Assembly (NCBI GenBank): GCA_009917695.1
Contig: JAACJG010000002.1
Span: forward strand, 372,001 to 436,000
Source of the DNA: Candidatus Rifleibacterium amylolyticum
GTDB lineage: Bacteria > Muiribacteriota > Ozemobacteria > Ozemobacterales > Ozemobacteraceae
Direction of reading: 5' to 3'
Length of the DNA: 64,000 nucleotides
Below are positions 3,860-20,938 of this stretch, one piece after another. Each line of letters begins with the position of its first letter. Position 1 is the first letter of the stretch. Position numbers and translations under genes: made by a program. The notes under the pieces are model-generated. The model worked only from the letters and a program-made list of their open reading frames with translations. It did no database searches and was not told where the DNA came from.

Positions 3860-4914
3860 GCGTCATCTATTTTTTCGTCGACATCAAAATTCAGACGATC
3901 TATTTTGCCTTTCAGATTTTCCTGGGAAACATGGGCATAGCGAAGGGTTGTTTCGAAATCTTCGTGACCGACCATATCCATGACAGATCTTACCGGAACA
4001 CCGGCAGCAAGAAGGCCAGACACAAAGGTGTGTCTAAGGCCGTGAAGTCTTCTATATGGCAAACCCAGATTCTTACAGGCAATGCGAAGCTGTTCACGGC
4101 ACCAATTCTTTGAATGTTTCTGCATCTCAGGAAACACCAGTTCCTCTGGATCTTTTCCCCGGGCTCTTTTCAGCAATATTGGTTTCAACTTTTCGTGCAT
4201 CTCGATGTGACGGAACTGGTTGTCTGGAGACTTTTCCGTCTTGTGGTTACGAACACGAATCATTGAACCTCTGACGTCCATAACTTCCAGACTGGCGGCT
4301 TCCCTGCTTCGACAGCCAGTGAACAGGAAAAACGTAAAAAGATCGCCGAACTCTTTGTCCGTGAAATAATTCATCAAGCTTTGAATATCAGAAGAAGAGT
4401 AAGCACCAAGTCTCTCAGGCCTCTTAGTCAATGTCTTCAACCGTGGCCATCTTTTTATGGGCATCTCAGAGATAGAGCCTTCATCAAGCAGCATCTTTAA
4501 AACCGCCTTCAGCAGGTTGATCTCTTCCTGAATCGTCTTATTGGATCTCCCCTCCCCCTGGCGCATTGTCAGATAATCGGTTAAATTTTCACTGGTAAGC
4601 TTATTCACCAGCTTTACACCCTGCTTGTCAAAAAAGTTTTTCATCAGAATAATCTGCTCACGATACCGAAGCAAAGTGCCGGCCTTCAACAAGGGTTCTT
4701 TCGAGCGATAAAACTTCTTGAAAGCTTCTACAATGATGACTCTCTTGGGTGCCAGTCCTGTTTTCATGCTTTCAACCTGAGCGTCGAGACGAACTTTCAG
4801 GCGCTTCGCCTCTGTTCGGTTCTTTGTCTTCAGGCTCTTCTTGTGAAGCTCACCCTCTTTATAATACTGGTAATACCAAGTGCCACCGGCTGTTCTCTGA
4901 TAAATGCTACCCAT
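3856..4914 (-). CDS. Tyrosine recombinase / phage-type integrase
   Basis: Likely start MGSIYQRTAGGTWYYQYY at 4914 (the longer ORF reads through the tRNA). R...HxxR...Y catalytic motifs: TGCRSREAASL, LHGLRHTFVSGLLAAGVPVRSVMDMVGHEDFETTLRYAH. Confidence 0.95.
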   Translation of the reverse strand: MGSIYQRTAGGTWYYQYYKEGELHKKSLKTKNRTEAKRLKVRLDAQVESMKTGLAPKRVIIVEAFKKFYRSKEPLLKAGTLLRYREQIILMKNFFDKQGVKLVNKLTSENLTDYLTMRQGEGRSNKTIQEEINLLKAVLKMLLDEGSISEMPIKRWPRLKTLTKRPERLGAYSSSDIQSLMNYFTDKEFGDLFTFFLFTGCRSREAASLEVMDVRGSMIRVRNHKTEKSPDNQFRHIEMHEKLKPILLKRARGKDPEELVFPEMQKHSKNWCREQLRIACKNLGLPYRRLHGLRHTFVSGLLAAGVPVRSVMDMVGHEDFETTLRYAHVSQENLKGKIDRLNFDVDEKIDDA

Positions 4915-4970
4915 CTCGTTTTTTCTCCTACCACTACCAAAACCACTACCATGCTCCCCGGAATAAGCAG

Positions 4971-4995
4971 AAAGCCCGCTAATAAAGCGGGCTTT
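4971..4995 (-). terminator. Hairpin terminator downstream of tRNA-Leu
   Basis: AAAGCCCGCT-aataa-AGCGGGCTTT inverted repeat. Confidence 0.7.
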
Positions 4996-5005
4996 CAACT
5001 TTCGG

Positions 5006-5087
5006 TGCCGGGAGCGGGACTTGAACCCGCATGGCGTTAGCCACACGCCCCTCAAACGTGCGTGTCTACCAGTTCCACCATCCCGGC
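5006..5087 (-). tRNA. tRNA-Leu(GAG)
   Basis: Minus strand GCCGGGATGGTGGAACTGGTAGACACGCACGTTTGAGGGGCGTGTGGCTAACGCCATGCGGGTTCAAGTCCCGCTCCCGGCA; anticodon stem CACGT/GCGTG, loop TTGAGGG; long variable arm. 3' CCA is not encoded (ACCG). Confidence 0.93.
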
Positions 5088-5353: not shown

Positions 5354-5701
5354 ATGTCTGGCAATATCAGCTACAGATTAGAAAACAAGGTGTTTATAGC
5401 AGAAATAAGCGGTTACGCAGAAGTTAACCTCATGACAGGACTGGTGGAAAAGTTTTTTGAGAAAGTTGAAGAGGAATATTCTGACTTTGTTTTCGACTTT
5501 TCTAAGATGACCTTGATAAACTCATCTGCGCTGGGCAAACTGCTTGACATTATTTCCGAAGGCATGGGCTGCGACAATATCAGCTTTCATTTCTGTGCGA
5601 TTCCCAACACCAGCAAGCTGGGCATGTCCAGCCTTGGAATCCTCAACTACGTCAATGAATATGCAAGCCTGGACGAGGCCCTGAAAAAGCTCCAGCAGTA
5701 G
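5354..5701 (+). CDS. STAS-domain protein (anti-sigma factor antagonist-like)
   Basis: 115 aa; SDFVFDFSKMTLINSSALGKLLDII matches the STAS phosphorylatable-Ser region; SD aaaggagg upstream. Confidence 0.82.
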   Translation: MSGNISYRLENKVFIAEISGYAEVNLMTGLVEKFFEKVEEEYSDFVFDFSKMTLINSSALGKLLDIISEGMGCDNISFHFCAIPNTSKLGMSSLGILNYVNEYASLDEALKKLQQ

Positions 5702-5907: not shown

Positions 5908-8115
5908 ATGTCTTTATGTAACGACCTGAAACGCCACGCCACGAGAAGATCAGGGTACATACTGTATCTGGTGCTGTCACTTCTGGCGGTCTGGGGAATC
6001 ATCAGCTTTTCTCTTTCGCGTTACAAGAGCGGTTCAGTAAGCCTGCTGAGCCGAAGCTCGATGCAAAACCGCCTGACTACCGTCGCCCAGAGCGGCGCCA
6101 ATGAAATATGGGCAGTCATCAGAAGCGAAGTAAACGACAAAGGCGGCGCCGCCAACCCACTGCACTTCTACTCGCTCGTAAACTCCGTTTTCGCCAGGCC
6201 GGAAACCGAAAAACCGCCGGCAAACACTTACGTATGCGAGAGGTTTTTCGATCTGTCAGATCTGCCGTTTTCGAATATTCTTGCCGGTGAAATCTCTGCC
6301 GACAAGTTTGTCGTAAAGGGACACAGCCGAATATTTGTCACCAGACGCATCAGAAAGTCGCCCGAAGCGTTCTCTGGCCATATCGAGGTTCTCGTTCAGG
6401 CCGTTTCAAAATCTGACAGCAGAGAATTCGTCGAACTCAAAGAGAGACGGGACTTCAAAACAATAGATACCAGAGATTTTTTCGACAGGTATGCATTGTA
6501 TGTTAAAGACTATTCGTATGACTACAACAAAATCAATCAAAGGCTCATCATAAAAGGTCTCGAAGGCGGCGTGGTATCGACAGTCTATCTAGGCTCGCGC
6601 TTTGCACCGGCATACAAGGCGTTCAAGGGCTTGACCGGCCCGGCACCGATCTATCTGGATCTTAACTTCAGGGATGATTCGAACCTGATTCCGGGATTGC
6701 TGCAAAACCAGGTCGCACCGATTCCTCCCGGCGCCGGGAATGTTCCTTCTGCCAGCACAATTGCCAAAACGGCCGCCAAAGGCAATGTTTTCTGGGCCGT
6801 GCCGATGCCGATTCGCTTCAAACCGATTTACGACCGCGGAAGTTTTTCAGACAGCGATTTTTACTCAGTAAAAGCCCTGCAGGATGGCTATTACAAAACC
6901 TTTGTCGAGACTGCCCAGAAAACAGGAGCAGAAGAACATTCTCTGCCAGGGTTGATTCTCGAGGACTGGAAGAATTGCGGCGGCAACTACGCCAATTCAA
7001 AGGTCTTCAAGATGGTGGTTTCGACCAGCATCGATGCCTGGCAGTACATTTACGCCTACACCGATGCCCAAAGCCTCTGGGAGGGAGCGAACTGGACAAA
7101 TTTTGCCACTACGTTCCATTTTACCGGGCTCAATGATTACGTGAAATTCATGAAAAGCTTCCATCCTGAAAAAGTAATTTCCGGAAAAATGGCGCAGATT
7201 TTCGGGCCGCTGCGCAACATCCCGGTCTCGCTCGAAGGCAATGTATTTTTCAGATTCTTCAAGGTCGCATTTCTTGACGAATTTGACACAACAATAACCT
7301 TGGGCGGCGAGGCGAAGGATCTCGGAATGCCGGCAATCCCCCTTCATTTTCAAGATCCGGAAGGCAACGCCAACAATTTCCTGAACAAGGAAGTAAGAAT
7401 CCATGGGATTGAAAACCAGCTGATGAGCCGCGAAGTTAACGAAATCCCGGTCAATGCAGTGTTCTTTGCCGGAATTGCCACGCCGGCAGCTTCGAGCGGC
7501 AACCCCGACAAGGTTTTTCCGACAGTCAGCATCGATGCTATTTCTTATCGATACAAGTCCGCCGAAGACTTTCTTGCCGACAGAACCATGATTGTCAACG
7601 GCAAAAAGCGAATCAATGCCGATGGAATCATGTTCATTGAAAAGGGCAACCTCGACCTCAGCGATTATGAGTCCTTTTCCGGCCAGGGAATGATATGGCT
7701 GGGCTTCCGAGGCAACGTCTACCTTGGCGACCTTGCCAAGTCGAAACCCTCTGACATCTTGAAAATATGGGCGCAGGACGGCAATTTCATCGTCAAAAGC
7801 AACAAGGCGGCCGTAAAAATTCACGCATCGCTGATCGCCACAACTTTCTTTTCCGACACTAAAAGAGATGTAAAATCGCTGAACAATCGCGGCAAGCTGA
7901 TCCCAGACAAGCATGAAGTTGAGATAGTCGGCAATCTGATCACCGACTATCTGTTTCTGACCGACAAAAGCTACGGTATTCCCGATGGAAAATCACTGAC
8001 CATAACTCATGACCCGTTTCTTCATTCCCCGGTCTACCCGAAATGGACAACGGTCGGCACGGTCAGAAGTATACACTGTCTGAGTTTCGACTATGAAAAC
8101 AGGTTTTTCAAATAA
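5908..8115 (+). CDS. PilX/GspK-like membrane-anchored protein (putative)
   Basis: N-terminal RRSGYILYLVLSLLAVWGIISFSLS helix then large extracytoplasmic domain; abuts the HEAT/pseudopilin genes. Confidence 0.5.
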   Translation: MSLCNDLKRHATRRSGYILYLVLSLLAVWGIISFSLSRYKSGSVSLLSRSSMQNRLTTVAQSGANEIWAVIRSEVNDKGGAANPLHFYSLVNSVFARPETEKPPANTYVCERFFDLSDLPFSNILAGEISADKFVVKGHSRIFVTRRIRKSPEAFSGHIEVLVQAVSKSDSREFVELKERRDFKTIDTRDFFDRYALYVKDYSYDYNKINQRLIIKGLEGGVVSTVYLGSRFAPAYKAFKGLTGPAPIYLDLNFRDDSNLIPGLLQNQVAPIPPGAGNVPSASTIAKTAAKGNVFWAVPMPIRFKPIYDRGSFSDSDFYSVKALQDGYYKTFVETAQKTGAEEHSLPGLILEDWKNCGGNYANSKVFKMVVSTSIDAWQYIYAYTDAQSLWEGANWTNFATTFHFTGLNDYVKFMKSFHPEKVISGKMAQIFGPLRNIPVSLEGNVFFRFFKVAFLDEFDTTITLGGEAKDLGMPAIPLHFQDPEGNANNFLNKEVRIHGIENQLMSREVNEIPVNAVFFAGIATPAASSGNPDKVFPTVSIDAISYRYKSAEDFLADRTMIVNGKKRINADGIMFIEKGNLDLSDYESFSGQGMIWLGFRGNVYLGDLAKSKPSDILKIWAQDGNFIVKSNKAAVKIHASLIATTFFSDTKRDVKSLNNRGKLIPDKHEVEIVGNLITDYLFLTDKSYGIPDGKSLTITHDPFLHSPVYPKWTTVGTVRSIHCLSFDYENRFFK

Positions 8116-10353
8116 ATGAACAGCAGGAGCGAACAAAATCTGCGTGCAGAAGAGCTGTCACAGGGCTCTTCGGTCGATAATCTGTCGATACAGGAATTGC
8201 AGATCAATCTCTGCCTCGAAGAATTGAATTCAAGCGACACTCTCACCAGACAGCACGCAATTTCGCAGTTGCAAAATTTTGTTGATAATCCAAAAGTTGT
8301 TGCTGCCCTGAAGGCCCGCTTTGAGATTGAGGAAAACCCTTACTGCAAAAGCGATTTAATTGAGCTGGTCAAGCTGACGACTGTCTCTACCACTGCGCTG
8401 GAGCTCTCAAAGAGCCAGACAAGTCAGGCTCTGGAAATAATCAGGCTCTGGAACTCAGTCGAAATTGCTCTTCTCTTCGACCTGGTCAAGCATGTGAAGA
8501 AGCTATCGACAGAAGATCAGGTAAAGGTTTTCTGCGAAATTTTCGGCAGCGCAAAGTCGCCGGCACAGATTATTCCGGCGCTTTCTCTAAGCAGAAAAGT
8601 AATGCTGCATGACGAGGTATTGAAGCGCCTCGAGAAGCTGCTGCATGCGAAAAGCCCGTTGATGGTGATCAGAGTCATCAATCTTCTCACACGTCTCAAA
8701 CCGGCAAGGCTTGCCACACACCTGCCAAGACTGCTGGTCGACAAAAGCATGCAGGTTCGGCTGGCGGCCATAAAAGCTCTGCACCTGCTTTCACAATCAG
8801 AAGCAATAAGACTGCTCAACGAATTTTTGTTTTCCAAAAATGAAAACAATCGTAAGTCGGCTTTTTCTGCGCTTTTTCTGCTACCGTTCAATCACACCGG
8901 CGACGTCGTGTTGAGGCTGATAGAGCAGGCCGAGCTCCCGAAAAATCTTGACCAGGTCATCAGCTTTCTGATCTACAACAACCCCGACCCGCAATTTTTT
9001 CGCCGAATCACCATTTCATATCTGCTGCATGGCAAAAAGCTGGCCAGACTGAAGAATTACTGGTCCCTGGCCGCCAGAGCGCTTATCATTGCCAGGCTCG
9101 TCGACAAGGATGAAATAGAGCTGAAAACTCAGGCGCTGGCAGAAGCAAAAAAGTTCATTCAAAGTCACACCAGCAAAGATACCGCAGATGAAGTGGCAAA
9201 AGAAGAGGCAGCTCCGTCCGGTCATCAAAATAACGAACTTGCACAGTTGTTCACCGTTAAGGAATTTTCGGAAAACGAGGCAAACAGGCTTCTGAAAATC
9301 TGCCGGAATGTTACCAGTCCATCAGAAATTCTGGCGGCCATCAGACTTATCAGCACACATCGACTGACCTCGCAGCATTTTTCTGACTGGCTGGAAGCGC
9401 TTCTCGACCACGATTCTACAGATATAGTCTGCGCCGCAATCGCCAGTCTGCAGAAGATCAACAGCGCAAGACTGCTTCCGCACCTGCCGGTTCTGGTTTT
9501 TCACAAAGAATCGACGGTTGGAGAAACTGCCATTAAGGCATTCAGCAGCGATTATTCAGACAAATTTGCAGACAAACTGAAGCTATGGCTCAAAGATAAC
9601 GATGCCAGAATCAGAGATGTCGCCCGCAAAGGTCTCATGGAAATCGACTTTCTGCAGGCCCGCGACCTTATTTTTGGCTATTACCGGTCAGTTGCAAAGG
9701 TTGAACAGCTCAAATTCTACGCATCGATTCTGATATTGAACCCTGACAGATTGACGGTCTACCGGCTGAATGACCTGGCTGCCAGATCGTCAGGCGAAAA
9801 GAAACAGTATCTTTGCCAGCTCTCTGACGAGATTAAAAAGGAGCTTGGCGATGCCACCAACGATGAAAACACTTCGACCTTGAGCGCCATAATCAGCGAA
9901 GCAAGCCTGCAGGAGCAATGGGCGGAAATTCTCTGCAAAATCAAACAGATCAGTTATAACAATCAGGAAATCACGCTGTCAGACCTGACCAGATCAAAGG
10001 CTTTCAATTTTGTCATGGCTGGTTTTCTGATCATTACCATCGTTCTGTTTTTAACGAAGTTCAGAATCGACAATATTTTTACGGGCAAAACCGCACCAGC
10101 CACGGCGACGCAGAAGACTTATTCATACGATCTTGGCGAACAGACCCTGCCACAGGCTGATCTTGCAAAGGCCAGACCATGGGATTACACACTTCCTGAG
10201 CTTGCAACCCCCAGCCCTGAATTGAACGAAGTAATGACGATCGAGGAACATAGGGTTCTTCGCAACGACCTGCGAGAAGAAATCGGTACAGATGCGGATA
10301 AGGTTTCGACTGATTTTATAAATTTATCACCTGAAGGTGAGTCGTTAAAATGA
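8116..10353 (+). CDS. HEAT-repeat protein with single C-terminal TM helix
   Basis: Repeated helical units (LPRLLVDKSMQVRLAAIKALHLLSQSEAIRLLNEFL...); TM FNFVMAGFLIITIVLFLTKF near the C-terminus; start directly follows the preceding stop. Confidence 0.72.
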   Translation: MNSRSEQNLRAEELSQGSSVDNLSIQELQINLCLEELNSSDTLTRQHAISQLQNFVDNPKVVAALKARFEIEENPYCKSDLIELVKLTTVSTTALELSKSQTSQALEIIRLWNSVEIALLFDLVKHVKKLSTEDQVKVFCEIFGSAKSPAQIIPALSLSRKVMLHDEVLKRLEKLLHAKSPLMVIRVINLLTRLKPARLATHLPRLLVDKSMQVRLAAIKALHLLSQSEAIRLLNEFLFSKNENNRKSAFSALFLLPFNHTGDVVLRLIEQAELPKNLDQVISFLIYNNPDPQFFRRITISYLLHGKKLARLKNYWSLAARALIIARLVDKDEIELKTQALAEAKKFIQSHTSKDTADEVAKEEAAPSGHQNNELAQLFTVKEFSENEANRLLKICRNVTSPSEILAAIRLISTHRLTSQHFSDWLEALLDHDSTDIVCAAIASLQKINSARLLPHLPVLVFHKESTVGETAIKAFSSDYSDKFADKLKLWLKDNDARIRDVARKGLMEIDFLQARDLIFGYYRSVAKVEQLKFYASILILNPDRLTVYRLNDLAARSSGEKKQYLCQLSDEIKKELGDATNDENTSTLSAIISEASLQEQWAEILCKIKQISYNNQEITLSDLTRSKAFNFVMAGFLIITIVLFLTKFRIDNIFTGKTAPATATQKTYSYDLGEQTLPQADLAKARPWDYTLPELATPSPELNEVMTIEEHRVLRNDLREEIGTDADKVSTDFINLSPEGESLK

Positions 10354-10907
10354 AAACCATTCACAAAGCAGCACGCTCTGACAGATTGCGTGGCATTACC
10401 TTTCCGGAGATTGTTGTCGCAGTGGCAGTGTTTGCGATAATGGTTATTCCGCTTTATCTGACCATGGGTAATGTTCAAACCGACACGAAAAAAAGCATCA
10501 ATTACCTCAGGGCAATTGAACTCGCAAATGAAGCCATAGATTACGTAAAGATGCTTCCGGTCGACAAAGACTTCAAACGCAATGCCGATGCGCTTTCCGG
10601 CAGCATTCTGATCGAAACCGGCAGTGACTTTGAAGCCGCTCAGATTCCAACCGGCGCCAATGACTACTACAAAGATGTTCTCGAGCCTAAAATTCAATAT
10701 TCAAGCCAGTATAATCCGGCCTACTTTTACCGGACCATTGAAGTGTCAGATTTGACCGGCACCGGCTATGCAGGCTTGTTGAAAAAGGTCATAGTGACAG
10801 TGTACTGGGATAACGACGTTAAGGTTAACAATATTCATGATCTCAGCAAAAAAACCAGAAACGTCGTTATGGCTACTCTTGTCACAGACTGGAAAAGCCA
10901 GCCATGA
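10350..10907 (+). CDS. Prepilin-type N-terminal cleavage protein (PilV/GspI-like)
   Basis: RGITFPEIVVAVAVFAIMVIPLYLTM type III signal; overlaps the upstream gene by 4 nt. Confidence 0.8.
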   Translation: MKTIHKAARSDRLRGITFPEIVVAVAVFAIMVIPLYLTMGNVQTDTKKSINYLRAIELANEAIDYVKMLPVDKDFKRNADALSGSILIETGSDFEAAQIPTGANDYYKDVLEPKIQYSSQYNPAYFYRTIEVSDLTGTGYAGLLKKVIVTVYWDNDVKVNNIHDLSKKTRNVVMATLVTDWKSQP

Positions 10908-11587
10908 AGATTACATCAGCAAAACCACATTCGGGATTTACGCTGGTAGAAATGCTTATCGGCACCGTCATCATCGGCTTCATTTTTTACATAGTTACCT
11001 CCTTTTCCAGCAATATGGCCTTCAAATACAAGCACGGCTTTGTCGATCTCGAAAATTTCCGTGTAGCGCATCAGGCAATCAATCAGTTGCGGCGCGATTT
11101 CAACATGGCCTGTCCCTATGTAACTGCCGGTGACGGCATAAATGAGCAGAAAAAGTTTCTTTTGCGGCCGCTTTCTATCGACAAAGGCGCCGGAAAATTT
11201 GCCGGAGCCAACAGAAGAATAGGTATTATGCCGCAACATCTGACTTTCTATAAATTTGCCGACGCAAGTTTTGGCCAGCACCAGATGCCGGTGGTCGAAG
11301 AGGTTGAGTATCTTTTTGACAGTGCTTCTGGAGATCTGACCCGTAGATGTGGCGCGACTCTGCAAAAGTTCCCAGGTTTCAAGGAAATCGAGTTCAAATC
11401 GTTTGTGCATCAGGCAAACCCACAGGTTCCGGTATTGTGGGTGAGAATGACGCTCGACCAGGATCACTATAAGGAAAGCGACTTCGGCAAGCCACTGGAA
11501 CTGACTGTAAGCATCACCAGCAACTTTGTTGCTGACGCGATAAACTACAACAGCTGGCAATATAGAAATTATCATCAGAGCAAATAA
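10904..11587 (+). CDS. Prepilin-type N-terminal cleavage protein (PilW/GspJ-like)
   Basis: SGFTLVEMLIGTVIIGFIFYIVTSF canonical GFTLVE motif; overlaps the upstream gene. Confidence 0.88.
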   Translation: MKITSAKPHSGFTLVEMLIGTVIIGFIFYIVTSFSSNMAFKYKHGFVDLENFRVAHQAINQLRRDFNMACPYVTAGDGINEQKKFLLRPLSIDKGAGKFAGANRRIGIMPQHLTFYKFADASFGQHQMPVVEEVEYLFDSASGDLTRRCGATLQKFPGFKEIEFKSFVHQANPQVPVLWVRMTLDQDHYKESDFGKPLELTVSITSNFVADAINYNSWQYRNYHQSK

Positions 11588-11653
11588 CAAATTACGTTTT
11601 CGAAATTTTGCGCGTTTTAATAAATGAAGAGAGATTACAGAGGGAGAAATTTT

Positions 11654-12532
11654 ATGATGAGTTTCTGGCAAAAACGGTTCCTTATCAGCATTTTTCTGAT
11701 ACTGGCACTAACTTTTCAGCCAATCATAATTTCCTCAGTCTATGCGCAGAGCGGAAGCAAGGCACAGCAGCTTAAAAAAGCAGGTGAGCTGGCTAAAGAC
11801 GTCTGGGAAAAGGGAAAAGACGTATTAAAAATCACGCCTGACCCCGCCAAAGAGGCAGCCAAAGCTATGGCTGCGAAGGGAATAGAAGACTCTGCCAAAT
11901 CAGGCATGCTGAATCGGGCAATTCAGAAATTCGTCGGCATGATCACCGATGCCAAGCTGAATGTCAAACTGATGATCGATGTTATCGATTCGATCATCAG
12001 CATTGTAAAACTGGTAAGAAACCCGGCGAGGTCTATTCTCGACTCGGCAACGACGCTGACCGGCATTACCACAAAGTTTCACAAAGAAGAAACAATACTC
12101 GATGTGCTCATCGGAAAAATGGACACAATGGTAACCAGTTCAAGCATTGTCGGAATGATTCTGGCCGGGGCCGGCGCTTTGGCGGCCTCAACCGGAATTT
12201 TTGTCCATATCGGGGCGACCTGCAGTGCCATCGGCACGGCAATACTGGGCTATGCCAAAACTGCCGGCATCCTTTTGTCGGCTTTAAAAGCCGGGATTGT
12301 GGTGGGGAAAGCCGCAACCAAATTATGGTATGCTGCTTCCAACAAATTAAGATCCTGGTGGGAGAAGCGAAAGGCGGCAAGGGAGACAGGCATACAACCC
12401 GGCGAAGAACCGCCAGACATGAAAGAAGACATCAAGGCAATCGATGAAACAAACGACAGCATGTCGACCGATCTTAATGGCCCGGATGATTCGGATACAG
12501 TCGCAGATCCCAGCTACTCAGCTGAAGATTGA
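11654..12532 (+). CDS. Exported hydrophobic-segment protein A (unknown function)
   Basis: SD agggaga; signal RFLISIFLILALTFQPIIISSVYAQS; central IVGMILAGAGALAASTGIFVHIGATCSAIGTAILGYAKTAGILLSALKAGIVVGKAA. Confidence 0.6.
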   Translation: MMSFWQKRFLISIFLILALTFQPIIISSVYAQSGSKAQQLKKAGELAKDVWEKGKDVLKITPDPAKEAAKAMAAKGIEDSAKSGMLNRAIQKFVGMITDAKLNVKLMIDVIDSIISIVKLVRNPARSILDSATTLTGITTKFHKEETILDVLIGKMDTMVTSSSIVGMILAGAGALAASTGIFVHIGATCSAIGTAILGYAKTAGILLSALKAGIVVGKAATKLWYAASNKLRSWWEKRKAARETGIQPGEEPPDMKEDIKAIDETNDSMSTDLNGPDDSDTVADPSYSAED

Positions 12533-12612
12533 CACAAATTATTCAGGTACAATTACATTTGTTAAAAAATGTTCGTTTAATATTAAGAATGAAGATTAAG
12601 GGGGAAAAGAAT

Positions 12613-13536
12613 ATGAGCAGAAATCTTAAACTCAGACCGCTACTCTGTTGGTTGCTGGTTTTTTCACTGGTGTTTCAGCCGGTCATATTTGAAGCAGTGG
12701 CACAGGCAAATGAGCAGGTAACCACCGCGGAAGACTCAAGCACTCAAACCCAGGGAGCCTCACAGGAACTCAGCAGCGTCGATACCAGCAAATGGGAAAT
12801 CAAAACCAACTTCTGGCAGAAGCTTGGCATCTCGATCGGTAATTTCTTCAAGAAAGGCTTGAAGAAGAAAATCGAGAACGCAAAAAAGGAACTGGCCAAA
12901 GCCAGAACAGAGACAGAAGCAAGCAAGGCCCAGACCAAAGAAGCGGCAGCTGAATCAGCCAAAGCGACCCAGGACACAAAGGGTGCCGTGGCAACATCTC
13001 AGTCGGCCAAAGATAAAGACAACCTGAGCGCTGCATCGGGCGCAAAGGGAAAAGCTCAGGAAGGACTGCTCAAGGTCGGTGAAAAACTGCAGGGAATAGC
13101 GGATATACTATCTCAGATCGGCATGGCGCTGGGAACCGTCGGCATGGTATGTTCTTCACTCAGCGCAGTACCCTATGTGGGGGCTATTTTAGGTGCCGTG
13201 GGAGGAATCCTGAAGACCGTAGCCGCGCTTCTTGCCAAAGTTTCGGCAGTGATAAAAGTGGCAGCAGCCGCAATAATTGCGGCTGCAAACGCTTCCAAAA
13301 CGAGCGATGTTGATTTCGATAAATATGCAAAAGACGCTGCCGAAGCATGGAAAAACTCAGGCAACGAGTATAAAACGTCAGAAAAGACAACTGAAGGTAA
13401 GGTGAGCGAAGAAAGTGTCTCTGGCTCTGAAAAAGAAGAAGTGACCGTTCCGGATGAAGACAGCATTGAAACTGACAACTCAGGCTCACAGGAAGAGGTG
13501 GTCGGAGAGCCCGACCTTCCGGGATCAGAAGAATAA
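12613..13536 (+). CDS. Exported hydrophobic-segment protein B, likely paralog of protein A
   Basis: SD ggggaaa; signal LLCWLLVFSLVFQPVIFEAVAQA; hydrophobic IGMALGTVGMVCSSLSAVPYVGAILGAVGGILKTVAALLAKVSAVIKVAAAAIIAAANA; acidic C-terminus. Confidence 0.6.
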   Translation: MSRNLKLRPLLCWLLVFSLVFQPVIFEAVAQANEQVTTAEDSSTQTQGASQELSSVDTSKWEIKTNFWQKLGISIGNFFKKGLKKKIENAKKELAKARTETEASKAQTKEAAAESAKATQDTKGAVATSQSAKDKDNLSAASGAKGKAQEGLLKVGEKLQGIADILSQIGMALGTVGMVCSSLSAVPYVGAILGAVGGILKTVAALLAKVSAVIKVAAAAIIAAANASKTSDVDFDKYAKDAAEAWKNSGNEYKTSEKTTEGKVSEESVSGSEKEEVTVPDEDSIETDNSGSQEEVVGEPDLPGSEE

Positions 13537-13622
13537 TTGCGGCGGTCAGAAACAGATCGACTTCTGTTGTTAATCGGTAAGCATTATTCAGGAAATGCTG
13601 CAAGAAAGCTGAGACTGCAACG

Positions 13623-13663
13623 ACACATTCAGGCAGAGGGTTCTGAAGTCTGCCTGAATGTGT
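13623..13663 (+). terminator. Strong hairpin terminator
   Basis: ACACATTCAGGCAGA/TCTGCCTGAATGTGT perfect 15 bp stem followed by tattcttt. Confidence 0.75.
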
Positions 13664-13712
13664 TATTCTTTAGATAGCGACAGGATGCGAACAGCGTTCG
13701 GGAGATTCAACC

Positions 13713-14687
13713 TTGAACGAAAGCCGGAAAGATAATTTGAACAATGTGGTTAAAGAGCTTCTCTTTGACCTGTCTTCTGATGAAAAAACTGTCAGAGCCG
13801 GAGCAATAAGCGGACTTCTCAAATTTTCCACACTTAAACCAGTAGCTCAAGCCGCCCGCGAGATATTTGACTCAGAGCAGGATCCTCATTGTAAACAGGG
13901 ACTGCAGGAAATTCTCGATATTTATGAGCGCAACTCGGGAGATGCAAAGATACGTCTGGTCAAAAGTCCGCATTTCAAACAACCGGATACTCGCAAGCTG
14001 TCTCCTGATGTTCAACCTGAGCCTGAAGCTCCAAAGTTAAGACTTGTCGACAGTAAAATCAGAACAAATCCACCGCGAGCCGGTGTTCATACCGGTAGCG
14101 CGAGTATATCCGAGACAAGACAGCTGGCAGATAAAAACACGGTGCAAACTGCTGAAATAGGCAATAAAGACACCATGTCAGAAGCCGATACCCCAAAACT
14201 CGAACAGGAAGAACAGCCCGCCCAGTCTACAATATTACCGCTCAGTCTCGAAAAACTGAAAAAAATCTCGAATGACTGGTTGGAATGGGCTGCTCAAAAC
14301 GATCTACGGGTGTCACAATCCGGGCTGGGTATTATACTGACGTTTCTATTATGTTTTGCACTTATTGTTTCATACAATATTTATAGAGGCAATGTGATCT
14401 CATACTCTGGAGAATCCGGCAAACTGGAACATGCAATAAACCCCGGTCAAATCCAGACAGGCGAGATTCCACGAGGAGAGATAATTAAAGGAACTCTGAA
14501 AGAATACAATAACCTCGCTCAGATCTGGTTTTTCCTTGCAGACGACGGGAGACTGTTCAAGCTCAAGCTTGACAAATCGCCCAGCTATTACAGAGTTGAA
14601 GAGTATCTCGAGGTTCTGGTCGAGGGCTGCTCAAAAAACTCTCTGGGTCATACAATTCTTATGGGTAAAGCTGAAAAGAAAAGCTGA
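13713..14687 (+). CDS. Short HEAT-like/TM protein, paralog of the 8116-10353 product
   Basis: TTG start. N-terminal LSSDEKTVRAGAISGLLKF...DSEQDPHCKQGLQEILDI resembles LNSSDTLTRQHAISQLQNF...EIEENPYCKSDLIELVKL; TM GIILTFLLCFALIVSYNIY; about 100 aa C-terminal extracytoplasmic domain. Confidence 0.62.
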   Translation: MNESRKDNLNNVVKELLFDLSSDEKTVRAGAISGLLKFSTLKPVAQAAREIFDSEQDPHCKQGLQEILDIYERNSGDAKIRLVKSPHFKQPDTRKLSPDVQPEPEAPKLRLVDSKIRTNPPRAGVHTGSASISETRQLADKNTVQTAEIGNKDTMSEADTPKLEQEEQPAQSTILPLSLEKLKKISNDWLEWAAQNDLRVSQSGLGIILTFLLCFALIVSYNIYRGNVISYSGESGKLEHAINPGQIQTGEIPRGEIIKGTLKEYNNLAQIWFFLADDGRLFKLKLDKSPSYYRVEEYLEVLVEGCSKNSLGHTILMGKAEKKS

Positions 14688-14699
14688 CAGGATGGCAAA

Positions 14700-15209
14700 T
14701 TGAATACAAATGTAATACAAAACAACAGAAAAGCACGCCAGGGACTCTCTCTGCTAGAAGTCATGCTGGCTGTAGTAATATTTATTCTAGGTATAATTCC
14801 ATTGTTGAGGCTCTTCTCTGAAGGCGGACTGGCGCAGCAAAAGGTCATTCGCGATTTTCCGGTGACATTGAGCATTGCCGAGCGAATCCTGATGACAATA
14901 GAAAACGAAATAGATGAAGGGCGTTTTGATACCGCCATGTTTACGGGAACAGACGGAAACGGCGTCGATATCACTGAATCCGTAATAGAAAACCAGGAAG
15001 TAAGCATGGCTCTCGAAAAATTTTATGGCACAGACAATCAAAGCGCTACCAGATTTTTAACCCAGTGCCGGGTTCTTCTCTCAACCAAGCCAAGTTCTGA
15101 CCCTAATCTGATTGAGATTACCATACGTTTTCTCTGGAATGACCGTGATACAAACAGCAAAGATTTTAAGCACGGCATCGAACTTCATCTGCTCAAAGGC
15201 AAGATCTGA
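14700..15209 (+). CDS. Prepilin-type N-terminal cleavage protein (PilV/GspI-like)
   Basis: RQGLSLLEVMLAVVIFILGIIPLLRLF; TTG start. Confidence 0.82.
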   Translation: MNTNVIQNNRKARQGLSLLEVMLAVVIFILGIIPLLRLFSEGGLAQQKVIRDFPVTLSIAERILMTIENEIDEGRFDTAMFTGTDGNGVDITESVIENQEVSMALEKFYGTDNQSATRFLTQCRVLLSTKPSSDPNLIEITIRFLWNDRDTNSKDFKHGIELHLLKGKI

Positions 15210-15213
15210 AAAA

Positions 15214-15723
15214 ATGCTTGATATGATAAACGGAAAAAAAGGCGTAACCATAGTAGAAATCTGCGTATACGCAGTAATCTTCGCCATGTTTATGGGCATG
15301 GCGACTGGAGTGTTCTTCTGGGCAAAAAAATCACTCGATGTAACTAAGAGAACAGATGATCTGCAGGATCTGCGAGTTGCCTCTACCCAGATAAACACCG
15401 AGTTGTCATACGGCAACAGAGTGCTTTTTCCGCCGGTTTCAAACAGGAGTTTCAGTCAGATACTTTTCATGAATGACAGAAATGAGCTTGTAGTCTTCTT
15501 CAGAGATGAAGACGCCAAGCTTAAGCTGATAAATTATGAAAAGTTCAAGGCCGGCGAAAAAAGCGGCGAAAGGGTTATTGCCAGAAACACCATCGAATTT
15601 CAGGCAGAAAGACCTGATGCCAACCTGATCAAGTATTTTGTAAGAATCACCGACGAAAAGAATGTCGAACACGTGATCGCCAACGCTGTAAAAATGCGAA
15701 ACACAGAAACCAACGGCCCGTGA
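15214..15723 (+). CDS. Prepilin-type N-terminal cleavage protein (PilW/GspJ-like)
   Basis: KKGVTIVEICVYAVIFAMFMGMATGVFFW; internal ATG at 15214 is preferred over the ORF-track start. Confidence 0.78.
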   Translation: MLDMINGKKGVTIVEICVYAVIFAMFMGMATGVFFWAKKSLDVTKRTDDLQDLRVASTQINTELSYGNRVLFPPVSNRSFSQILFMNDRNELVVFFRDEDAKLKLINYEKFKAGEKSGERVIARNTIEFQAERPDANLIKYFVRITDEKNVEHVIANAVKMRNTETNGP

Positions 15724-15752
15724 AGACCTGTTATCCAGAAAGGAGATTGATT

Positions 15753-17510
15753 ATGCAGAAACGAGGGATCGCAGTTCCCACGGCTCTCGTGCTCATTACT
15801 GTTCTACTTGGCTTTTTCGTTGCCATGATGAATTTTTCGAGCCATGAGATGCATAACGTAAAACTTTTCTACGAGCAAAAGCGGGCCGAATATCTCGCAT
15901 ATTCAGGCCTGAACTGGGCCGAAGTAAAGCTTCAGGGCAAACGCTGGTGGGTAAGCGGCGGGTTTGACCCGACCAAAAAAATATCGAGAGCGACCGGCGG
16001 CGCGGCAGTGCATGAATTTTTCGGCAGCGGCAACGGCAAGACATACATAATTGCCGAAGAGTTCGAATCAGCAAATCCGTCACCGGTTAAAGGCTATTCC
16101 AAGGTTCAAAGACTAGATCACATCAGGGTCATCTCTATTGGCGAATACAAAGATCAACGCGTTCTCGTTTACGGCAAGTATATCATGAGCCCTGAACCAT
16201 TTTTGAACTCTGACAGCACTGAAGGAGCTGAAACACAGACAACCGCCACCACCGAAGAAGGCAAGGTGGCGATCACCGTTCCTGAACCCTGGTCGCAGGA
16301 TGGCCCGGTTCCGGAACTGATGATCGTAGAGAGCATAAATGTGGGGGTTGGCAGCAAAGTAAACCCAAATGTAATTCTGGCAACTCTCGCCGCGCATCCG
16401 AGCGACCCGGTTCAAATTACCATGACCTGGGACATCAAAGCACCGGCATTCGGAACCTTAACCAAAGTTAACTTCGCCGTAGGACAACCTATCAGGGCGA
16501 GAGATCTTTTCGGCGAATGTACCGACGAACTGATGGTGGCGACAAGATCGAACAAAACTCTCAAAAAAATGGTCAGAGTCACCAAGGTAATCGATCGATC
16601 GATCACCGATCTTGACCTGACTGATTTTGCGGTTCGGCGCAATAAACTCGATGCGTTCATCAAAAAGCTGTCAGACGAGTATGTGGTTAACTATGCCAAG
16701 AATCTGCCCCACATCGACCAGCTGGAGAGCTCTTTTGGTAGCCCGCCATTGGGCAATACCGTAAAACAGGAAGAAGTGCTCAGGCGATTGAGTGCCGTGC
16801 CTGGCAACAGCTCCATACCAGTCTTTACAGCCGGCAACAAATTCATGGAAGACATGCTGGAAAAATGGACTATGCCGGGACTCACAGCCCCGCAACGCGA
16901 AAAATTCCCGGGCATGAGTGAATATCATCTTGCCATCGGAAAAAGTCAGCCAAGGGCCGAGATAATGGAAGTGCTGGCTCACTTCGGGCGACTTGGCGAT
17001 ATCGTTACCCGCCCTCAGAAAAACCCCGAACTATACAAGCTGACATCAACCGAAAGATACAAAAGCACCATGGGAATCAGCGATTTCAGCAAACCTTCAG
17101 ACCAGTTCGTTCATGATGCCACTTTTCTGCAGGATGCCGCCAAGAAGATCACCATAACCTTCAACAAGGGGACCCCATGGGAAGACGCTGTCTACAAAGA
17201 AAAAGTCGCCAACGGAGAGATCAATGCCGGCGACTACTGGTATTGGCCATCAAAAGCAGGCTGGTATACCAAACCCGATATCACTATAGAAGCTGTAGAA
17301 ATCCCCTACAACTTCGTAAACAAAGCATCCGGCCAGACCTTTACCATGGAAGTCGGCTTCGTTCTCAACTATCTGCGAAAGCACTATGACGAGGGAATGG
17401 CCGTGCCGCCCGGTGGACCGATCAGATTTCCCAGCGACCAGCAGGATACTCCTCAGGCGCCAGGCCCGCCAGATTCAACCGGCGCCAAATACAGCGGTAT
17501 TTCTTCGTAA
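15753..17510 (+). CDS. PilX/GspK-like protein
   Basis: SD aaaggag; KRGIAVPTALVLITVLLGFFVAMMNFSSHEMHNVKLFYEQKRAEYLAYSGLNWAEVKLQG resembles PilX/GspK N-termini. Confidence 0.6.
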   Translation: MQKRGIAVPTALVLITVLLGFFVAMMNFSSHEMHNVKLFYEQKRAEYLAYSGLNWAEVKLQGKRWWVSGGFDPTKKISRATGGAAVHEFFGSGNGKTYIIAEEFESANPSPVKGYSKVQRLDHIRVISIGEYKDQRVLVYGKYIMSPEPFLNSDSTEGAETQTTATTEEGKVAITVPEPWSQDGPVPELMIVESINVGVGSKVNPNVILATLAAHPSDPVQITMTWDIKAPAFGTLTKVNFAVGQPIRARDLFGECTDELMVATRSNKTLKKMVRVTKVIDRSITDLDLTDFAVRRNKLDAFIKKLSDEYVVNYAKNLPHIDQLESSFGSPPLGNTVKQEEVLRRLSAVPGNSSIPVFTAGNKFMEDMLEKWTMPGLTAPQREKFPGMSEYHLAIGKSQPRAEIMEVLAHFGRLGDIVTRPQKNPELYKLTSTERYKSTMGISDFSKPSDQFVHDATFLQDAAKKITITFNKGTPWEDAVYKEKVANGEINAGDYWYWPSKAGWYTKPDITIEAVEIPYNFVNKASGQTFTMEVGFVLNYLRKHYDEGMAVPPGGPIRFPSDQQDTPQAPGPPDSTGAKYSGISS

Positions 17511-17524
17511 CCTGGCCCGACTGT

Positions 17525-18436
17525 TCAGTCAGGCAGAACCGGATCAGAGGCAACATCGAGAACGGGCTCGGGTGATGACTCGCTACCCGTTGATTGCCCG
17601 GACTCTTCGCTATGACTCTGCGTCATTTCAGCGATTTGCCTTGCCGAAATAGTCAACCCCTGCCCTTTTGCCAGAAAACCGGTTTTACCGCCATCTTTCT
17701 GCTGCCACTGAATTTTGCCGTCCTCGACATAGATGAAGTCTGAATCCGGCCGGGCCTGCAGCTGCAAAACCGTGCCGACGATAACAAGCGAAGAGAAATT
17801 CATGACTACGTTGTAACCCCTCGCAGACGGCTTGAATGCTATTCTGGCGTCGCCATTCAGCATGCTGAGAGAATTCTCATTGACAATGAATTCTGCCCCG
17901 CCTTCTATCTGAAGCTGGTCCTTGTTATCCCAGGCCAGTTTGCCGCCACCGTCAGCAAAATGCAGTCTATCGCCGGGAAGAACAGCCTGCTGTTGCGGAC
18001 TCAATTCGATTGCAGTTGCGTTTCTCAACAGCTTGCCATTGCCAGAAACATAAGCCACCGGCTTTGGGCCATGTCCCCAGAAACTTATGGCTGCGAGCGA
18101 ACACAAAAGAATGACAAGAGCAAAACCGGACAGCGCCCATTTTCTGTTATCGGGCATGAATAAACCGGAAAGAAATGCGGCAAACGAAAAGCGCTTCTCT
18201 GACTGAGGCGCGGCAATCTGCTTTTTCACTTCCAACAGTATTCTCTTTTTAACTTCCGGTCTCAGCGTTGCCTGTTTCTTGAGCTTGGCGATCTCGAAAT
18301 TCTGAACGGAAAGAGCTTGCTGGCAAATGCTGCAGCTTTTGACATGCTCAACAAAGTGCTCAGGCAATTCATCGACTCCGGCGGCAAAATTGCCTTCATT
18401 CAACCATTCTGAGAAATTCTCACAGGTCATTTGCAT
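17525..18436 (-). CDS. FecR-like anti-sigma factor with N-terminal zinc-finger
   Basis: HFVEHVKSCSICQQAL (HxxxCxxC); TM LSGFALVILLCSLAAISFW; FecR-like periplasmic domain (GDARIAFKPSARGYNVVMNFSSLVIVGTVLQLQ). Confidence 0.8.
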   Translation of the reverse strand: MQMTCENFSEWLNEGNFAAGVDELPEHFVEHVKSCSICQQALSVQNFEIAKLKKQATLRPEVKKRILLEVKKQIAAPQSEKRFSFAAFLSGLFMPDNRKWALSGFALVILLCSLAAISFWGHGPKPVAYVSGNGKLLRNATAIELSPQQQAVLPGDRLHFADGGGKLAWDNKDQLQIEGGAEFIVNENSLSMLNGDARIAFKPSARGYNVVMNFSSLVIVGTVLQLQARPDSDFIYVEDGKIQWQQKDGGKTGFLAKGQGLTISARQIAEMTQSHSEESGQSTGSESSPEPVLDVASDPVLPD

Positions 18437-18956
18437 CCAGCTCCTTCCTCAAAATTTTCATCCCTTTGCAGACGAGGTTCCGTAGTGACCCTTCAGTTTT
18501 GTCCAGGATCTGCGATATTTCCTTGTAGTTGAGCTCTTCAACAACCTTGAACATCAGCGGAATCCTTATTTCGTCGGGCAGCAGGCTCATAAAATCTGGA
18601 GATTCGCCGGCATCTTTCTCTGCAGTGCGTATTTTCAATTCTTCCACCGGTCTGTTTACACAGCTGGGCCTTCGCTTCTTTCTGCGGATCTCATCAAAGC
18701 AATGATTTCTGGCAATGGTCATCAACCACGATTTCACGCCGCCAGGCTTCAGACCCGGCAAGAACCTGTAAGCTTTCAAAAATATCTCCTGGGTCGCATC
18801 TTCGGCCGCCGTCTGATCGCCCAGAATCGCTACGCATCTTGCAAAAACCAGATCTGCCATCTCGTCGAACAATTTTTCGAAAGCGGCAACATCCTGTTGT
18901 CGAAGCCTTTCGACAAATGCTTCATCATAGCTTTGACTGCCGGCAGAACGACTCAT
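18420..18956 (-). CDS. ECF-type RNA polymerase sigma factor
   Basis: DATQEIFLKAYRFLPGLKPGGVKSWLMTIARNHCFDEIRRKKRR (region 2) and MFKVVEELNYKEISQILDKTEGSLRNLVCKGMKILRKEL (region 4); overlaps the anti-sigma gene. Confidence 0.93.
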   Translation of the reverse strand: MSRSAGSQSYDEAFVERLRQQDVAAFEKLFDEMADLVFARCVAILGDQTAAEDATQEIFLKAYRFLPGLKPGGVKSWLMTIARNHCFDEIRRKKRRPSCVNRPVEELKIRTAEKDAGESPDFMSLLPDEIRIPLMFKVVEELNYKEISQILDKTEGSLRNLVCKGMKILRKELDANDL

Positions 18957-19024
18957 GTTACTGACTTCTGGTTCCTTCATTTAATAAAACGTCACAATTC
19001 ATGCTTTTGTCACCGGGCGCCCTG

Positions 19025-20938
19025 CTATTTTTTTGCAGGCGGCCCCTCTCTTCTAACAACTACATAAGTCACGTCATCATCAAAGCTTCTTCCTTTTTTA
19101 TGTTCGTTGACACCGGCAAGAAGCTCACTCAAATCACGATCTCGCGTAAAATCAGGCATAATTTTTCTGAGAAACTCGTACCAGTTCGGAAAAGAATATT
19201 GCTCATCATTCCAGTCAAGCGCCTCAACGATTCCATCAGTGAAAAGAACGATTGAATCGCCGTGTTGCATATCGTAATGCACAGCTTGAATTGGCAGATT
19301 CTTTATCACTCCCATGGGGAATCCGGCCTTTTTGAGTTCCTGTAGATTCCCGTCGCGATCGATTACAACAGGAGGCAGGTGTCCGGCCAGCACCAGATTC
19401 AATTTGTGAGTTTCGACATCGATGTGACCAACCGCAAGAGTCATGAATTTCTTTTTCTTTACCAGCTCAAAAATGATCTGATTGAGCGTAGAAACAATGG
19501 CTTCTGGCGAGACCATTTCTTTCTGCCGGAGCAACTGAATTGTAGTTTTTGCCATTACCGTGAGCATTGCCGCCGAAAACCCGTGACCGGCGACATCACC
19601 CATAACGAACAGCAGATTTTTGTCGGCCATTTCAAAGTAATCAAAGAAGTCGCCACCTGTAGCGTCACATGGCATGCATACGCCTCTGATGCTGTAGTTG
19701 TCATTCTCAATGAACTTTTCGGGAAACAGCTCGCCCTGAATCTTGCCGGCCAGCTCAGCCTCGGCCTTCGAGATCTGCTGCTCGATCAATTCGATGAAAC
19801 GCCTGACCAGACTGTAAGAGACCGAAACGAACGCCCAGGTCAGAAACAGGCAGCTGAGCGGCGGAAAAATCAGCAACAATGCCAGCAGATGATATGTCAG
19901 CAGTAGAAGCACAAAAAATACCGCGACATCAAAAAGTTCGTGAACAAACCGCTTCCGCGAAGCAAAAACATAGCTTAAAAGCACTCCCACCGCGGCAAGC
20001 AGCAGTCTCACCAGAAATCCGTCAACCGGTGCTGAAATGCGGCCTGTTAAGATGGTGTCCATCGTTGCAGCGAGAATCTGAGGGCCTGACATCAGCCCAA
20101 GGCAGGTCTGATGATAATCGTGCAAAGCGATAGCGGTCGCTCCGACTATTACGATTTTATCCTTCAAAAATTCTCCCGACACCTCTCCTGACATCAGATC
20201 CAGACCTCTAAGCAATGGTATACCGCCATTTTTCCCGGCAAAAATTATGTGACTTCTGTCCGGCATCCTGCCCAAGGTTTCGTAGCCTGGTTCTAATTTT
20301 TTCACCACTTTCAACTGACAACTTTCTTCGTCAAGTTTTGAGTCGCGAATCGAGAACGTGCGAATTCTGGCGTCCGAGTCGGTAAATGAATGTATATAAC
20401 CGTCACACCAGGCAACATCCCTGAACCTTTTCAGACTGCGAAACTGACGACTTCGCCGGCCTGATTCAGTCAATTCCTCCTCGATAAAACCAACCAGGGC
20501 AATGTTTCCCGCATTTTTGATCATTTCTTCGAGAACAGCGTCGCCATACCCGCCATCAGACTCTTCAGGCTGTTGAAAAACAATATCCAGAATTATCACT
20601 CTGGGCTTAAAAGAATTTATCAACTCAAAAAACTCGGCAAATTTAGCGCGACTCCATGGCCAGCGCTGCTTTATCCCATCCAGGGTTTCGGTGTCTATCG
20701 CCACGACAGCGAGCTCAGACGAACTGGCAAAAAATGGCGCCAGATTCCTTTTCGCAAAGTCCTGAAAAATGCGATCAACTCTGTCGGTCTGCTGCGGCAA
20801 AAAGATTATGAGAATGATTACCAGCAGAAAGCACAAGAACAATCCAATGCTTTTCTTCCTGGACAGGGTTAAATTAAACTTCTTGAGATTCGTTAATATC
20901 TCATTCTGCACCAGACTCATTACGTCCTCAAAAATCAA
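19025..20938 (-). CDS. CHASE2 sensor / SpoIIE-type PP2C serine phosphatase
   Basis: CHASE2-like VVAIDTETLDGIKQRWPWSRAKFAEFFELINSFKPRVIILDIVF, TM helices, then PCDATGGDFFDYFEM...VMGDVAGHGFSAAMLTVMAK...VLFTDGIVEALD. Confidence 0.92.
   Translation of the reverse strand: MIFEDVMSLVQNEILTNLKKFNLTLSRKKSIGLFLCFLLVIILIIFLPQQTDRVDRIFQDFAKRNLAPFFASSSELAVVAIDTETLDGIKQRWPWSRAKFAEFFELINSFKPRVIILDIVFQQPEESDGGYGDAVLEEMIKNAGNIALVGFIEEELTESGRRSRQFRSLKRFRDVAWCDGYIHSFTDSDARIRTFSIRDSKLDEESCQLKVVKKLEPGYETLGRMPDRSHIIFAGKNGGIPLLRGLDLMSGEVSGEFLKDKIVIVGATAIALHDYHQTCLGLMSGPQILAATMDTILTGRISAPVDGFLVRLLLAAVGVLLSYVFASRKRFVHELFDVAVFFVLLLLTYHLLALLLIFPPLSCLFLTWAFVSVSYSLVRRFIELIEQQISKAEAELAGKIQGELFPEKFIENDNYSIRGVCMPCDATGGDFFDYFEMADKNLLFVMGDVAGHGFSAAMLTVMAKTTIQLLRQKEMVSPEAIVSTLNQIIFELVKKKKFMTLAVGHIDVETHKLNLVLAGHLPPVVIDRDGNLQELKKAGFPMGVIKNLPIQAVHYDMQHGDSIVLFTDGIVEALDWNDEQYSFPNWYEFLRKIMPDFTRDRDLSELLAGVNEHKKGRSFDDDVTYVVVRREGPPAKK

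Follow-up and report, generated by a model that had tools for sequence, protein, structure and literature searches.

Which machine is served by a gene cluster that joins prepilin-like proteins to membrane-anchored HEAT-repeat proteins? The cluster lies at positions 5908-17510 of a 64,000-nucleotide stretch of the genome of Candidatus Rifleibacterium amylolyticum (contig JAACJG010000002.1, positions 372,001 to 436,000; hereafter the window). Its ten open reading frames (ORFs), all confirmed on the plus strand where the initial annotation had placed them, are mostly joined by 4-base overlaps or abutting ends, and they form two tandem cassettes, namely X1-HEAT-V1-W1 followed by HEAT'-V2-W2-X2. 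Here, V and W denote prepilins resembling PilV and PilW, X denotes a large PilX/GspK-like protein, and HEAT and HEAT' denote HEAT-repeat proteins with a transmembrane helix (HEAT-TM). The initial annotation put the cassettes forward as a candidate undescribed secretion or surface-appendage system; a stand-alone system of this kind is not supported, and we found the HEAT-TM family to be tied instead to ordinary type IV pilus cores, with one clade directly after PilQ. We therefore propose, tentatively and at somewhat less than an even chance, that HEAT-TM proteins are adaptors that dock STAS-gated minor-pilin tip modules onto a shared type IV pilus core.

Recurrence of HEAT-TM genes beside prepilin genes

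To define the HEAT-TM family, we required a match to a family profile (A2) over most of the length together with a C-terminal transmembrane segment. The window's genome (5.39 Mb in 35 contigs) was read as 20-kb stretches, in which ORFs were called by a simple program adjusted to that genome; the gene maps of some relatives are rougher, and their key counts come from profile searches over all ORFs. All nine full-length HEAT-TM genes of the window's genome lie within 6.1 kb of a prepilin matched by the Pfam N_methyl model (p = 6e-8), in a test that used the Pfam prepilin model only and in which neither gene set served as seed for finding the other. As ~16% of the genome lies that close to one of its 98 N_methyl matches, a genome so rich in prepilins and in HEAT repeats would yield some pairs by chance proximity. 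This explanation is nonetheless extremely improbable and was rejected, given the genome-wide p-value, the strong bias in strand and distance seen in eight genomes, the near-empty control loci, and the co-evolution of the parts.

The bias concerns the downstream side: over the eight genomes, prepilin density is 0.11-0.19 per kb in the 0-6 kb downstream of a HEAT-TM gene on the same strand, compared with 0-0.04 per kb elsewhere. For 33 of the 72 HEAT-TM genes, the next 7 kb of the same strand hold X, V, and W, mostly in the order HEAT-X-V-W, and a STAS gene lies within 2.6 kb of 37 of the 72 (within 500 bp of 34). Across 1.13 Mb of HEAT-TM loci, we counted 52 V, 50 W, 45 X, and 38 STAS matches, whereas twenty generic-HEAT loci in other families (299 kb) gave one V, one W, no X, and one STAS with the same profiles, which were seeded from HEAT-TM loci and could favour them; the bare prepilin motif shows the same contrast (7.5 per 100 kb at HEAT-TM loci, 1.0 at controls). 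Further, in within-genome paralog pairs, HEAT distances correlate with those of X, V, and W (r 0.70-0.71, p <= 0.008) and with those of STAS (r 0.88, p 0.0005), and these parts have therefore been inherited together.

The pairing of HEAT-TM proteins with minor pseudopilins, which the initial annotation had described as recurrent and nonstandard, does recur and is conserved at orthologous loci, where an absence of HEAT neighbours was looked for and did not emerge to contradict it; moreover, none of the layouts that our searches brought up corresponds to it. The full-length family occurs in 22 of 22 genomes of the bacterium's family, with 3-28 A2 matches each, many of them near full profile length, while in twelve genomes from other families of the phylum A2 gives partial generic-HEAT matches only. 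The named relatives of the window HEAT-TM protein are all from Candidatus Riflebacteria, and the HEAT-TM tree comprises distinct clades. A single-transmembrane HEAT protein from a different Riflebacteria family (L180:8970-11669) has a prepilin ~0.5 kb downstream, possibly an early form of the pairing. A literature search for work linking HEAT repeats to pseudopilins or to minor pilins, whose coverage excluded most subscription journals, turned up no relevant paper.

Type IV pilus core loci and HEAT-TM architecture

The initial annotation had supposed that the core machine is encoded elsewhere, and this is so: outside the cassettes, the genome carries several PilC/GspF genes, about eight PilB-like and over a dozen PilT-like ATPases, and 7 secretins, as well as a GspE-GspM cluster resembling a type II secretion system (T2SS). 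HEAT-TM genes occur at such core loci. One clade is found 54-161 bp 3' of a secretin in six genomes, within an operon that, in the Pfam-scanned examples, encodes a prepilin, a PilM-PilN fusion, a PilO-like protein, the secretin, and the HEAT-TM protein. Another, tail-anchored clade lies opposite a PilC-PilB-PilM-PilN-PilO cluster, which is Pfam-confirmed in the window's genome and whose gene sizes recur in two relatives. In addition, a pair of PilT genes lies ~4-7 kb upstream of the HEAT-STAS-V-W-X cassette type in four genomes. A different HEAT family includes a HEAT-PilT fusion of 932 amino acids with a PilT-like T2SSE ATPase domain (L171:5619-8414, minus strand; G000:C9). With the core genes found, and with HEAT-TM genes at PilQ, PilMNO, and PilT loci, HEAT-TM therefore belongs to the neighbourhood of the machine; because ordinary type IV pilus cores are where the family itself belongs, the cassettes resemble accessory modules of those machines, for the tip or for priming. 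A stand-alone secretion system was rejected, since the cassettes lack core parts, the core lies elsewhere, and members of the HEAT-TM family are built into pilus core loci.

Three further features of these core genes are recorded here. In the PilQ operon at L081:16557-19997 and L124:11224-17979, HEAT-TM is followed by a protein with five transmembrane segments and by a giant, lipoprotein-like one that contains Ig-like and kelch domains, an arrangement kept across genera. PilT-like ATPases (genome-wide in G000; L060, L048, and L175) often form adjacent pairs, some of them beside HEAT-TPR proteins, and represent an unusual expansion of motors of the retraction type. At L058:4303-10047 (minus strand), seven consecutive prepilin genes follow a PilC-like gene; two of the seven begin with identical 45 residues, as expected of a recent major-pilin duplication.

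In 69 of the 72 members, HEAT-TM proteins have one C-terminal transmembrane segment and no N-terminal hydrophobic signal. A Foldseek search with the C-terminal domain returned proteins with an OB fold (lowest E-value 1.6e-3; target-based TM-scores reaching 0.65), a result only suggestive of an OB-like domain, and a sequence search of this domain against the PDB gave no match. The predicted layout comprises a cytoplasmic HEAT solenoid, one transmembrane helix, and, in most members, a periplasmic OB-like domain.

Both cassettes had been credited with a HEAT-TM protein, which holds fully for the first and in reduced form for the second. HEAT-TM 1 (8116-10353, plus strand; 745 amino acids) matches Pfam HEAT_2 (PF13646, 1.4e-15) and scores 725 bits against profile A2, of whose ten rows it is itself one; its transmembrane segment lies near residue 629 and is followed by a ~98-residue tail unlike the OB-like domain of other members, and its orthologs stand at 56% and 53%. 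HEAT' (13713-14687, plus strand; 324 amino acids; ortholog at 44%) consists of one HEAT unit, a linker, a transmembrane segment (residues 202-224), and an OB-like domain (residues 257-322). A Pfam search of HEAT' found no HEAT repeat, while a family profile built without it matched its first ~62 residues alone (E 3.6e-13 in a one-sequence search). The AlphaFold model has one HEAT unit (predicted local distance difference test [pLDDT] 83-90), a transmembrane helix, and a five-stranded domain (pLDDT ~82).

The operon and its minor-pilin-like proteins

The two cassettes that the initial annotation had distinguished both exist, as parts of one conserved operon whose leading STAS gene had been overlooked. 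This gene (5354-5701, plus strand) lies 206 bp 5' of X1, is kept upstream of X1 in L166 and L167, and encodes a SpoIIAA/RsbV-like protein of 115 amino acids, with Ser57 in the motif INSSAL and a Pfam STAS match (E 1.7e-4) slightly short of the curated cut-off. In the relative L166, the order is STAS-X-HEAT-V-W-exported B-HEAT'-V-W-X, the same as in the window, and the two cassettes are therefore one conserved unit. Three convergent genes follow on the minus strand, namely (i) a gene for an anti-sigma-factor-like protein (17525-18436), which has no Pfam match and is named from context; (ii) an extracytoplasmic-function (ECF) sigma factor gene (18420-18980; Pfam Sigma70_r2, 2.5e-14); and (iii) a gene for an RsbU-like PP2C sensor phosphatase with CHASE2 and SpoIIE domains (19025-20938; Pfam SpoIIE, 6.3e-40; CHASE2, 1.4e-29). 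Genes matching all three in size and place are present in L166.

Each V and W protein carries a class III prepilin signal followed by a hydrophobic helix, and the four motifs read in the initial annotation are all present. V1 (10350-10907, plus strand) has GITFPEI and sub-cut-off N_methyl and GspI matches; W1 (10904-11587, plus strand) has GFTLVEM; V2 (14700-15209, plus strand) has GLSLLEV; and W2 (15214-15723, plus strand) has GVTIVEI and probably starts at ATG 15214, not at TTG 15112, from which its ORF is open. Their Pfam N_methyl E-values are 0.013, 1.1e-5, 4.7e-4, and 0.087, respectively, and the weak prepilin calls for V1 and W2 are supported by their orthologs, which carry GFSFPEI and GFTIVEI. 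X1 (5908-8115, plus strand; 735 amino acids) has an N-terminal transmembrane segment and an AQSG signature; its orthologs have 741 (L166) and 736 (L167) residues, and it gave no match in Pfam and NCBIfam searches. X2 (15720-17510, plus strand; 596 amino acids) has an AYSG signature and a sub-cut-off GspK match (0.0012). In the alignment, its C-terminal tail, PQAPGPPDSTGAKYSG(I/L/V)SS, is almost invariant; these 20 residues (PQAPGPPDSTGAKYSGISS-like) are near-invariant among relatives with only ~30% identity elsewhere and may serve as a recognition tail. The PilX/GspK-like label given to the X proteins is borne out at their N-termini, which show AxSG at residue 60 and no class III prepilin motif, and did not extend to a PilX or GspK family match above cut-off. 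No PilV, PilW, or PilX family model matched the cassette proteins over the cut-off, so the suggested likeness of V, W, and X to these families is drawn from N-terminus, size, and order.

Two more ORFs lie between the cassettes. Exported A (11624-12532, plus strand; 302 amino acids) has an N-terminal hydrophobic segment and a hydrophobic middle and was not found in the operon of L166. Exported B (12529-13536, plus strand), with a signal-peptide-like N-terminus and a hydrophobic middle, probably starts at ATG 12613 and is kept in L166 (306 amino acids). As a general cassette part, the pair was rejected, because the genome loci searched yielded only a single other match to B, a weak one (E 5e-6), and L166 lacks A.

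These identities bear on an unlikely alternative, in which the cassettes would be cargo-specific T2SS pseudopilus modules, with a GspK-I-J-like tip exporting substrates such as exported A and B and with HEAT-TM coupling to the platform in the manner of GspC or GspL. As in GspI-GspJ-GspK, small I-like and J-like prepilins are combined with a large K-like protein lacking the usual Glu5 motif. In hhalign comparisons, V aligned best with the genome's own GspI (92.8%, E 4e-7), W matched GspG, GspH, GspI, and GspJ alike, and X aligned weakly with GspK (40%) and similarly with GspH; NCBIfam GspI and GspK were among the best sub-cut-off matches of V and X2. The genome's own T2SS-like cluster and the presence of two exported proteins in the operon also fit. 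However, all these family matches fall below cut-off, and no GspC-GspM component, GspC, GspD, GspL, and GspM included, was found among the cassette genes. The PilQ-adjacent clade sits in a PilM-PilN-PilO operon, which is a type IV pilus layout, the PilT pair stands beside one cassette type, and the sparse distribution of exported A and B also speaks against this alternative. We know of no HEAT-TM counterpart in the T2SS.

Two other features of the window are noted. Just 5' of the STAS gene, a phage-type tyrosine integrase gene (3856-5055, minus strand) adjoins an ankyrin-repeat gene and a restriction-type helicase gene, possibly the edge of a mobile island. Farther away, a predicted sensor (52405-54669, plus strand) unusually combines sCache, HAMP, a weak guanylate cyclase match, and C-terminal HEAT repeats.

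Proposed STAS control, known systems, and significance

On our adaptor reading, the operon would comprise two accessory modules for a machine of the type IV pilus kind, with the genes for its motor, platform, and secretin located elsewhere. The V and W prepilins of each module would assemble with the large X into a minor-pilin priming or tip complex, and the dedicated HEAT-TM protein, which we infer to be a previously undescribed type IV pilus adaptor, would dock this complex at the inner membrane on the shared PilB/PilC/PilMNO core. The tip role is suggested by analogy with known families, in which minor-pilin clusters act as priming/tip complexes (PMC7541494). The STAS protein would be toggled via phosphorylation of its invariant serine, with dephosphorylation probably by SpoIIE-type sensor phosphatases, and would bind the HEAT solenoid, thereby deciding module use; the genome would thus hold pilus tips that are interchangeable and each under separate control. 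A stronger version, which we regard as possible but doubtful, is that HEAT-TM is an undescribed part of type IV filament machinery, as integral in this lineage as PilP or GspC is elsewhere, and that its duplication lets one core mount at least a dozen interchangeable tips, many of them selected by STAS post-translationally through the adaptor and not through a sigma factor.

The serine equivalent to SpoIIAA Ser58 is invariant in 38 of 38 aligned STAS proteins. While the CHASE2-SpoIIE phosphatase lies near the operon and the genome encodes 48 SpoIIE phosphatases, the enrichment of SpoIIE near HEAT-TM genes is modest (2.8 versus 1.0 per 100 kb), and we therefore treat this link as secondary. A phosphorylatable serine would also suit a different explanation, in which HEAT-TM and STAS form a signalling unit, acting as a membrane sensor or in anti-anti-sigma control, with transcription of the adjoining pilin genes as its output and no physical role in the pilus. 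Consistent with this, ECF sigma, anti-sigma-like, and CHASE2-containing genes flank the operon in two species, and STAS tracks HEAT distances better than V or W does. However, the HEAT-TM clades in PilMNOQ operons mostly lack STAS, the ECF and anti-sigma genes were seen at this locus type only, and HEAT' retains an OB-like domain yet has one HEAT unit, which points to a periplasmic role. We consider the signalling explanation rather improbable.

Several observations weigh against the adaptor reading. HEAT-TM cannot be needed for every minor-pilin set, because among the 39 V-W pairs in the genome stretches read, X accompanies 22 and a HEAT-TM gene is near only 8. Conversely, 24 of the 72 HEAT-TM genes lack both a STAS neighbour and a full set of X, V, and W downstream; five of these are in PilQ operons, and others are core-linked or convergent. 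The positive-inside bias at the transmembrane segment is weak (34 members favour the predicted orientation, 19 oppose it). X1 and X2 matched no PilX or GspK model above cut-off, the AlphaFold model of X (five sequences) has a pLDDT of 33.5, and, with E-values as high as 1 admitted, none of the ten proteins matched PilY1 or the GspH/FimU family; PilY1 and FimU belong, with PilV, PilW, and PilX, to the type IVa pilus priming complex. Finally, the usual targets of STAS and SpoIIE regulation are sigma factors, and an ECF sigma gene adjoins the operon.

Among known systems, Verru_Chthon (NCBIfam TIGR02599 and relatives) is a multi-copy prepilin cassette of Verrucomicrobia. W1 weakly matches its protein C; membership was rejected, as no TIGR02599 match over the cut-off was found anywhere in the genome, and we know of no HEAT-TM or STAS in that cassette. 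SgmX of Myxococcus xanthus is a TPR solenoid. It is a cytoplasmic protein that activates type IV pili (PMC7668184) and differs from HEAT-TM in having TPR and not HEAT repeats, in having no known membrane anchor, and in working with MglA and not, as far as is known, with STAS or minor pilins. In Nostoc punctiforme, hormogonium development and motility, the latter linked to type IV pili, require the Hmp partner-switching system, whose output is the STAS protein HmpV, with an undefined effector and with the hps pseudopilins outside the core locus; no pairing of that STAS gene with a HEAT-TM protein is reported (PMC6495340). By analogy, HmpV offers a precedent for STAS control and not a test of it. 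Clusters 1-3 for minor pilins and PilY1 of the M. xanthus type IVa pilus likewise comprise several PilV/PilW/PilX-like sets off the core locus, which are thought to yield priming/tip complexes that differ in their properties (PMC7541494, PMC13190605). Unlike these, the cassettes lack PilY1 and FimU and have HEAT-TM and often STAS; further, HEAT-TM family matches number up to 28 per genome, whereas myxobacterial pilY1 averages two copies, with at most six.

Prior work on how tip complexes are chosen on type IV pili has centred on systems with one to a few minor-pilin clusters. In this lineage, cassettes occur many times in parallel, each paired with a candidate membrane adaptor and often with a STAS protein of its own, and copies of the putative adaptor also lie inside PilQ and PilMNO loci. 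If our reading is correct, HEAT-TM would be a new component of the type IV filament superfamily, and tip selection could be tested by pairwise binding. Moreover, Riflebacteria have an unusually large unexplained gene content (PMC10849945), for part of which the adaptor reading, if true, would provide a function.

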